Virus record (IMG/VR): IMGVR_UViG_3300037563_000027
Coordinates: 1 to 30,167 of that record
DNA: 30,167 bases
Source of the DNA: a virus
Reading direction: 5' to 3' (one strand)
This document shows positions 20,447-22,890 of this stretch, piece after piece. The notes beneath the pieces were generated by a model. That model was not told the origin of the DNA and made no database searches. It was given only the letters and a program-made list of their open reading frames with translations. How positions within the stretch are numbered: position 1 is the first letter of the stretch; the number at the start of each line of letters is the position of its first letter. A program made the position numbers and the translations under genes.

Positions 20447-21100
20447 TCACTCTGATTCGCTGTCGTCGCCTTGAGATTCAGAATAGCCCACCCCGCATCG
20501 ATCATTCGGGTGAATCGGCGTGCAATCGTCACCCGAAGGGAACGGCTCGTCTATCGGTATCAAGCCAGCCTCGATATTTTCCATGCAATCCTCGCAAGCA
20601 TCCCCTGAGCCGATCTGCTGCTTGAACTTCTGCCCTGTACCTTTGGCGGCCTCGTGCTTTCCGTGGTTGTAGGCATACATGCTTTCGGTCCTGCTGATGG
20701 TTAGGGCGCGCGCGGCGCTAAAGTCCTCGCTCTGGAGGATGTTGTGCTGGAGTTCGGTCGTAGTCCACCCCTCATCGACGGACTTGCTTATCAACTCTCG
20801 TAGGTTGGCCCTGGTGGTATCCGTGATCGCCCACTTGGCGTTCGGATTATCAATGATCTCGCCCTTGTCTGTGATGCGCTTTCCCACCAGCTCCGCGCCA
20901 CGCTCCCGAGCCATCTGCCGCGCCTGCTCCAAGACTTTGGTCCACATGTCGCTGTCTTCGACAATGCCGCGGTCGGTCAGGAACTCTGTGGCGCCAGCTA
21001 CTGCATCGGTTTCAAGGTAGGGCGTCACCTCGGGGATCAGGTCGCCCCAGTCGATGACTACGTCAATTGTGTCCTGATTTTTCTTGGGATGATCCACCAT
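20447..21100 (-). CDS. MuF-like minor head (head morphogenesis) protein, 217 aa
   Basis: Contains the C-terminal MuF core: AARALTISRTESMYAYNHG (around residues 130-148) followed by GDACEDCMENIEAG and a closing CTPIHPNDRCGVGY. Such proteins bind near the portal and in Mu and SPP1 (gp7) are needed for head assembly or DNA ejection. It follows the portal gene, as usual. It lacks a long C-terminal extension, so no toxin domain is attached. Confidence 0.88.
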   Translation of the reverse strand: MVDHPKKNQDTIDVVIDWGDLIPEVTPYLETDAVAGATEFLTDRGIVEDSDMWTKVLEQARQMARERGAELVGKRITDKGEIIDNPNAKWAITDTTRANLRELISKSVDEGWTTTELQHNILQSEDFSAARALTISRTESMYAYNHGKHEAAKGTGQKFKQQIGSGDACEDCMENIEAGLIPIDEPFPSGDDCTPIHPNDRCGVGYSESQGDDSESE

Positions 21101-21115
21101 AGATGCAAGTATAGT

Positions 21116-21265
21116 TTATTGCCGGGTTGCGTACCGGCCCCGGCTACCTTCATCGTCGGCCTTCGCCAGCTTCTCAGTTGCGAGTCCTGCTGCCGCTTCT
21201 TTTCCCTTGCGCTTCAGGTAGGCCGCTAGTACCTGCTCCAGTGACTTCCCCGCTTTGCTAAAGGG
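21116..21265 (-). other. Possible -1 frameshift extension of portal protein
   Basis: The portal reading frame contains C CCT TTA (21265-21259), an X XXY YYZ slippery heptamer, 11 codons before its stop. A -1 slip there leads into a frame open for 47 more codons to TAA 21118-21116, starting SKAGKSLEQVLAAYLKRKG and ending GSRGRYATRQ, strongly helical and well composed. This frame has no ATG, GTG or TTG between the slip site and its end, and I found none in about 45 codons upstream. The extension fills the only sizeable gap between portal and MuF genes. The slipped product would be about 591 residues. Confidence 0.5.
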
Positions 21266-22890
21266 CGGTCGGCTTCCGTCCCGGCCTCCTTTTGCGTGGG
21301 AGTAGGCTTGCTGGAGTTCTTGCCTGGTCCTGATGCCCCGCCGGCTCCGCCCGGTGCGACTGGGGTAGGTAGCGCGGTCTGTGCTGCCAGGACACTGAGC
21401 GGCATAGCTCCTGTGCCCGTGTATATCATCGCCACGTCACCACCCTCAATCGCATCCAGACCGTCCCGGTCTCGTAGTTCGTTGATTGTTCTGGCCCCGA
21501 TCTTCACGTTGGTTTGGTCAATCGTGGCTTGGTCGGTTGCCGCTACTTCCTCGTTCTGGTCGAACGTATGGCCGATGTCGTCCCATCCCCAGCCGAGGAA
21601 TATCAGGCGCTCCATCAGGCTCGACCACCAGAGCATCTCTCCATTGAGCCCTTGAGCGCGCATCTGCTCCTGGAGCTGTTCAGAGTTCGCCCGCGGCTCA
21701 GGCTCTTTGAGGTAGGGCTTGGGATCGGTCCTGAAGGCGCGGCAAACGATGCGAGCCATCCACTCGTCATAATCGCTCTTGAGCAAGTCGCCGGCCGAGC
21801 CCTTCATCTCAAACGGCTTTCCACCGCCAGGTATGAACCGCATCTTGGACTTGAGCTTCAAGTTCCCGCTCATCAGCGCGTCAAACGTTCCCTGCCAGAG
21901 GGCAATCTGCTCGGCGGACCAGTTCTCCGGACAGCACACCATCACGTCGGGGCAGGTTCCCTCGTTCCAGAAGTTGAGCATGTACATCGTCTTGCGGACC
22001 TGCTGGGTAGCCTCCATCAGGATTTGCTCGACCTCGGAGTATCCGTAGATTGGATTCTGAGCCCACCGATGCCGCGGCATGTAGACAATCTCGCGCTCGG
22101 TAAAGTTGTCCATCGGGAGACCTTTGACGATCTGGACGTAGGCCAGGGACGGCCAGTCAGGGATGCGACCGCGGTCGTCAATCTTCGGCACGATGGTATT
22201 GCCGTCGATCACTTCCAGAGCGTAGGGCTTCGTCCCGGATCTGTTCTTCCATATGAACACGGTGGCAGCGTCGATGGTGTACCGCTCGCGGAAGATCATC
22301 TCCATCCACTGCGGATAGGGAATCTTCCGGTCCGGCATCTTGAAGAAGGCGTTGAGTTCCTTGATGCGCGGGTCATCTTCCGACTTCACACCTTTGGCTG
22401 GGTTCTTCAGGACGAACTTCCACGGGAGGCTCACCAGCTCGTCGACGCGCGCGCTCAGTTCATTGGCGATGATTCCCGAGCCGCGCACGATGCCCCGCAG
22501 CATCTCGCCAAGCATGATGTGCCGGTTGACGATCTCCAGGTTGTAGCCGGTGGGGTAGTCCCACTCGCGTACATCCAAGATCGACGGAGGGCCGAAAGGC
22601 TGGACGGGCTGGTAAGGGCTGAAGCGGTTGCGCTCTTCGTCTACGTCGGGGATGAAGTCGGAGGGGAGTTGGCGGTCATCAGGGCCAGGACGGTCATTTT
22701 CAGGGTCCCGAACTGGCAGAGTAGGCCGAACGCCGCCGCGATTCCTTGCATTCAAGAGTCCATGCCGCGAATTCAGGAGCGTCATTGAACCGCCGGCAGC
22801 GTCCGGCATCTTCTGCAATGCCTTGTCGTTCAGCCGTTTACCAAACACTGTATCGTCGTTGATCTCAGTCGGTTCATCCCACAAGGCCAT
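21226..22890 (-). CDS. Portal protein, 554 aa (591 if frameshifted)
   Basis: Dodecameric ring at the capsid vertex through which DNA passes. Recognisable by size, place between terminase and MuF, and internal pattern: LVSLPWKFVLKNP, then QWMEMIFRERYTIDAATVFIW (as two adjacent segments near 195-215), EIVYMPRHRWAQNPIYGYSE, then ANSEQLQEQMRAQGL and ATIDQTNVKIGARTINELRD. These fit the HK97/SPP1-type portal wing, stem and crown. The C-terminal 60 residues are Gly/Pro/Ser-rich. ATG 22890 with GGGAG ahead. A slippery CCCTTTA at codons 543-544 may extend the protein. Confidence 0.9.
   Translation of the reverse strand: MALWDEPTEINDDTVFGKRLNDKALQKMPDAAGGSMTLLNSRHGLLNARNRGGVRPTLPVRDPENDRPGPDDRQLPSDFIPDVDEERNRFSPYQPVQPFGPPSILDVREWDYPTGYNLEIVNRHIMLGEMLRGIVRGSGIIANELSARVDELVSLPWKFVLKNPAKGVKSEDDPRIKELNAFFKMPDRKIPYPQWMEMIFRERYTIDAATVFIWKNRSGTKPYALEVIDGNTIVPKIDDRGRIPDWPSLAYVQIVKGLPMDNFTEREIVYMPRHRWAQNPIYGYSEVEQILMEATQQVRKTMYMLNFWNEGTCPDVMVCCPENWSAEQIALWQGTFDALMSGNLKLKSKMRFIPGGGKPFEMKGSAGDLLKSDYDEWMARIVCRAFRTDPKPYLKEPEPRANSEQLQEQMRAQGLNGEMLWWSSLMERLIFLGWGWDDIGHTFDQNEEVAATDQATIDQTNVKIGARTINELRDRDGLDAIEGGDVAMIYTGTGAMPLSVLAAQTALPTPVAPGGAGGASGPGKNSSKPTPTQKEAGTEADRPLAKRGSHWSRY

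Follow-up and report, generated by a model that had tools for sequence, protein, structure and literature searches.

Where a phage portal gene ends just ahead of a MuF gene and carries a formal slippery sequence within its last codons, the question arises whether the two genes are merely neighbors or are at times joined by the ribosome into a single product. This question is posed by the virus record IMGVR_UViG_3300037563_000027, analyzed over positions 1 to 30,167 (the window, a stretch of 30,167 nucleotides), with the site under study on the minus strand. The portal gene (zero frame, 22890 to 21226; PF04860, PHROG 2662/12) encodes 554 aa and has the C-terminus DRPLAKRGSHWSRY (...DRP-L-AKRGSHWSRY), closed by TAG at 21226-21228. 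As had been proposed in a preliminary description made from the letters of the DNA, reading of the ORF places a -1 slippery heptamer, C CCT TTA (21265-21259), in the portal frame and in phase for a -1 slip, its TTA falling 11 codons before the stop. In E. coli measurements, heptamers of the form CCCUUU-N belong to the motifs prone to frameshifting (PMC4066793). It had further been stated that the -1 frame is open for 47 residues, lacks a start codon of its own and ends just ahead of the MuF gene, and these points hold as well: the tail (21119-21259, minus strand) translates as SKAGKSLEQVLAAYLKRKGKEAAAGLATEKLAKADDEGSRGRYATRQ, contains no ATG, GTG or TTG past the portal stop, and ends at a TAA (21118-21116), with the MuF ATG at 21100 lying 15 nt beyond. 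What went unnoticed is that tail and MuF share one frame in the window, with this TAA as their sole separator. The MuF head morphogenesis gene itself (20447-21100, minus strand; 217 aa, PF04233) is present as a single copy in the record.

Scanning IMG/VR with the window portal yielded 63 loci, with a readable junction in 47 first-round relatives; one of these (L034) ends too early for the -1 frame to be followed into MuF, leaving 46 for that count, and the close relatives are all metagenome contigs. At the junction CCCTTT[A/C] is present in 47/47, as are a portal TAG at an unchanged codon and a MuF read in the -1 frame; that frame is open and stop-free to the conserved MuF motif DWGDLI/DWASLI in all 46 that are long enough. 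A second, separate scan with the MuF N-terminus returned mostly the same contigs together with some new ones; in 40/40 readable loci the slip site and portal stop are present and the -1 frame is open. Heptamer (as CCCTTT[A/C/T]), portal stop and open -1 frame are retained in every relative examined, and the arrangement at the portal end, as judged from this retention, is more than chance. The preliminary description had suggested aligning portal homologues for a continuation past the slip site, and had named as damaging to its proposal a set of relatives with the same site and no conserved -1 frame; the opposite is found, in that all readable relatives continue, into MuF, in a conserved -1 frame that shows selection at the protein level. 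A portal domain followed by a MuF domain in one polypeptide is thus encoded in the relatives by way of the -1 frame, and the window alone has the intervening TAA.

In those relatives the tail is a continuous, N-terminal part of the MuF segment. The frame stays open in L009, L036, L284 and L302, which have an in-frame insertion of 144 codons (GSWITVNGAHVHLNASGDADKGPKG...) after the tail and before MuF; MuF is all that Pfam detects in the L009 product so extended. A structural model of the -1-frame product of L004 (pLDDT 84) renders the tail as a confident helix over equivalent residues 9-26, ahead of the MuF helices, and its best matches in a viral fold library are MuF-type or minor capsid proteins, including one portal protein of fused length; searches of the PDB by sequence and by fold with the -1-frame product gave no significant match. 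We also considered the tail as a separate small gene and rejected this, given that it has no start, lies in the frame of MuF and is open into it. Two other departures in gene length were observed. Portal ORFs of L033, L035 and L046 are extended in frame, after residue about 325, by insertions of some 1 kb or longer, probable inteins with LAGLIDADG_3 matches (and, in L046, a weak Hint match besides); in L034, L036, L037 and L041 the portal match is broken at the same place. In L050 and L052-L055, the MuF frame runs far past the domain, within an ORF of some 1.8 kb, as a C-terminal extension.

Both readings of the junction bear marks of constraint. Past the portal stop, the frequency of minor variants at positions 1, 2 and 3 of the -1-frame codons is 0.052, 0.036 and 0.198 among 24 distinct close relatives, a bias toward position 3 which argues that the tail is coding in the -1 frame. 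The portal TAG, read in the -1 frame, spans a Leu-Ala pair written CTA/TTA-GCN in 66/66 loci (30 distinct sequences, with both Leu codons occurring), and of all the Leu codons these genes contain, CTA and TTA together make up 8.2%. Since any other Leu codon would abolish the portal stop there, the short portal is apparently kept by selection. Portal and portal-tail-MuF hence both look to be selected products. When eleven records, several of them near 60 kb, were searched with PF04233, each contained one MuF, and inspection of the relatives' junctions revealed no plausible MuF start led by a Shine-Dalgarno (SD) sequence before the domain in this clade; L019 is without any ATG, GTG or TTG from the portal stop to the DWGDLI motif. 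By sequence comparison, then, the clade has a conserved site, a conserved portal stop and a conserved -1 frame fused to MuF, and has neither an alternative MuF gene nor a credible MuF start.

These features are very probably explained by programmed -1 ribosomal frameshifting at C CCT TTA, which would yield both a portal and a portal-MuF fusion from one start. Most ribosomes would terminate 11 codons past the TTA, giving the 554-aa portal, while a minority would slip into the -1 frame and continue through the helical tail into MuF, giving, in the family of this phage, a fusion approximately 800 aa long. Portal subunits are normally all alike and form a ring, which in well-studied phages is a dodecamer. 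The ring here is presumably dodecameric too, and the frameshift rate would set the ratio of plain to MuF-bearing subunits, such that a few MuF copies become tethered to it. Slippage itself is inferred here, as are how often it happens, the stoichiometry of the ring and what MuF does. The earlier suggestion of a minority of longer portal subunits is accordingly retained in part: a -1 frameshift is supported, and the product differs, being a portal-MuF fusion in the relatives, with an end after 47 residues confined to the window.

Candidate stimulators of the slip are less clear-cut. An SD-like element, AAAGGAGG (21285-21292, minus strand), lies 19 nt upstream of the slip site, and AAGGAGG is kept at this distance in all close relatives; more distant ones have AAGGGGG or CGGAGG in the same place, with amino acid changes. 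The spacing range used for such stimulators in E. coli is 6-17 nt upstream (PMC4066793), and as 19 nt falls beyond it, the role of AAGGAGG as a frameshift stimulator is uncertain. Downstream, folds of about -9 to -20 kcal/mol within 40 nt are present in most relatives. Despite these individual folds, the consensus fold is almost without covariation (1/15 pairs compensated, covariation term -0.18), and we do not claim a stem-loop stimulator. With an SD-like element at 19 nt and a stem-loop lacking real covariation, the rate of frameshifting could be low.

The alternative that survives best, improbable as we judge it, is that MuF translation begins on its own, at a start codon within the -1 frame or through translational coupling, and that the overlap with portal is incidental. 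A GTG or ATG does stand right before the DWGDLI motif in most relatives, some distant relatives (L217, L242, L257-L268) have ordinary ATGA/GTGA/TTGA coupling, and the window has an ATG for MuF; however, the GTG and ATG codons before the motif are without SD sequences, and L019 offers no start at all between portal stop and motif. Independent initiation also predicts an unselected tail upstream of the start, at odds with the variability by codon position, and it leaves unexplained both the conservation of the heptamer in 47/47 relatives and the choice of CTA/TTA-GCN codons. Still less likely is that the two products arise from transcriptional (polymerase) rather than ribosomal slippage, which is plausible for lineages with A9-A10 runs (L104, L110, L146, L197), but implausible at CCCTTT, where no run exceeds 3-4 and the slip site of the window clade is without such A tracts. 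That a single-base assembly or sequencing error has split one true portal-MuF gene has a negligible likelihood and is refuted for the CCCTTT clade, for although single-ORF fusions are common in the wider family, and homopolymer error is conceivable in lineages with A-runs (as in the single-base difference of L110 from L139 next to an A10 run), the same -1 offset recurs in dozens of independent assemblies across 55-98% identity, which excludes the simple one-base error foreseen in the preliminary description, CCCTTT is not an error-prone homopolymer, and the portal stop is maintained by codon choice.

Frameshifting, if it occurs as proposed in the family, would have a different outcome in the phage represented by the window, where the fusion is broken: a slip would yield portal plus 47 aa only, alongside the plain portal, and MuF would be translated from an ATG of its own, perhaps through re-initiation 15 nt past the TAA. 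Both the TAA and the MuF ATG are carried by a 51-nt insertion (21085-21135, minus strand, placement approximate) that is found in the window only. No second copy of it was found in the window or the tested loci, nor by an exact 26-mer search of viral contigs, and no match in the scan with the MuF N-terminus includes the MVDHPK start of the window. The portal sequence of the window is identical to L061 and L002 up to about 21253 (203 bases compared); the window then falls to 82-92% identity with them over a tract from about 21252 to 20878, and beyond it returns to 95-100%. This mosaic tract of low identity (20880-21252) coincides with the tail and the MuF N-terminus. The window may represent either a recombinant lineage with an uncoupled MuF or a chimeric contig. 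We lean toward regarding the site, in the window alone, as a relic, in which a private insertion made MuF a separate gene and left portal plus 47 aa useless, a reading compatible with frameshifting in the family; it is favored by the absence of the insertion from every other contig and by the mosaic tract. Against it, the heptamer, portal stop and tail frame remain intact in the window, and therefore the change would be recent, or the contig chimeric. At the right end of the contig (29826-30167), we observed low-complexity repeats (GIEAGSGIEAGWGIKA...) with several frames open.

The set grew to 275 loci through a profile search and through scans that used portals of greater divergence; L144 and L146 portals as queries retrieved no additional viral relatives. 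Among distinct junctions with both domains found, 72 are fused in one ORF and 54 have overlapping ORFs with MuF in the -1 frame; the remainder have a gap, that of the window being -1 and two others +1. Ordinary stop-start overlaps account for 14/54 of the -1 class (L217, L238, L242 and others among L257-L268, where some, not every one, were inspected by eye), and the other 40/54 fall into 13 lineages below 70% portal identity. An in-phase slippery heptamer lies near the portal end in 13/13 of these lineages, against 3.8 and 5.5 expected under two synonymous-codon nulls (0/200 shuffles reached 13), the shuffles controlling for amino acids and codon use, with shared ancestry uncontrolled. The heptamers are CCCTTTA/C/T in four lineages, A-runs (A AAA AAA, A AAA AAG, A AAA AAC) in eight and G GGA AAA in one. 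With the same controls, and the same exposure to shared ancestry, the linkers of fused genes contain a slippery heptamer in 38/56 cases, where 12-16 would be expected and no shuffle reached as many; no enrichment was found in the portal core or MuF of the fused genes, and we take the linker enrichment as a lead. A C CCT TTT occurs in the linker of L097, which is fused and sister to the clade of the window. In a quick portal tree, eight changes between the labels fused and -1 are counted, of which well-supported branches require at least six, with the outlying rows belonging to the fused class. The portals of L110 (-1) and L139 (fused) are 97% identical, with a one-base difference beside the A10 run, the pair representing a natural phase switch. 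Chances are about even that a slippery portal/MuF junction is general in this portal family, the zero frame encoding, according to lineage, either plain portal, with slipping to yield portal-MuF, or the fusion, with slipping to yield a short portal, and one-base indels flipping the phase.

Several components of this arrangement have precedents. The PHROG 2662 profile, 717 positions long, matches the window portal in its first part and the window MuF in its last, and so represents a natural portal-MuF fusion; fusions in a single ORF have been published for Microbacterium phage clusters EA3/EA5/EA8/EB (PMC7302621). These, like Arthrobacter phage Sonali gp3 and the protein of Brevundimonas phage Strzyga, have the same two domains in the same order, and the Sonali and Strzyga portals are homologous to that of the window (29-31% identity; Strzyga 46% to L197). 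In single-ORF fusions every subunit is fused, whereas here fusion would require a -1 slip, and plain portal would also be made. In phage Emery of Brevibacillus/Paenibacillus larvae, gp4/gp5 (KC595516) is annotated with a predicted ribosomal slippage; its authors assigned the product to the gp7 family of head morphogenesis proteins and did not recognize a portal-MuF fusion (PMC4168068). PF04233 (E 4e-12) identifies the Emery -1 extension as a MuF domain, the slip site T TTT TTA lies two codons before the stop and the gene adjoins that for terminase, but the first domain has only a weak match to T4 portal and none to the portal family of the window. In phage SPP1, a MuF-type protein, gp7, is encoded beside the portal, gp6, and acts with it. 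SPP1 gp7 exists in two forms, from an alternative start (PMC4168068), and unlike the portal-MuF here, gp6 and gp7 are separate genes without fusion.

Frameshifting in other assembly genes offers a second set of parallels. The lambda G/G-T tail chaperone and SPP1 17.5/17.5* (PMC6316719) likewise use a -1 slip to make a minor, C-terminally extended form at a fixed ratio, but these are different genes with a different function, tail assembly chaperones, and the present site lies in the portal gene directly before MuF rather than, as in the lambda type, between the genes for the major tail protein and the tape measure. Structural proteins with a minor, frameshift-extended form in the virion are also represented by the head protein of the phiEco32-like phage SU10, with an Ig domain (PMC4281155), and by that of Lactobacillus phage A2 (cited in PMC7260188); there it is the major capsid protein that is extended, as opposed to MuF on the portal. 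Full-text searches of open-licence literature turned up no account of frameshifting between portal and MuF as such. Single-ORF portal-MuF fusions, the classical frameshifts in tail-chaperone and capsid genes and the Emery slippage are already known; the frameshift proposed here, which would yield portal-MuF, is well supported by comparison of sequences.

Recoding has hardly been described in this structural gene. A minority of portal subunits carrying MuF would be a direct and testable answer to the problem of loading just a few copies of an accessory protein such as MuF at the portal vertex, and the portal rings of such phages may be hetero-oligomers. Annotations that present portal and MuF as "split" genes in such genomes would then be wrong. 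If the slippery junction proves general, frameshifting would set the ratio of MuF-tagged to plain portal subunits across many tailed phages.
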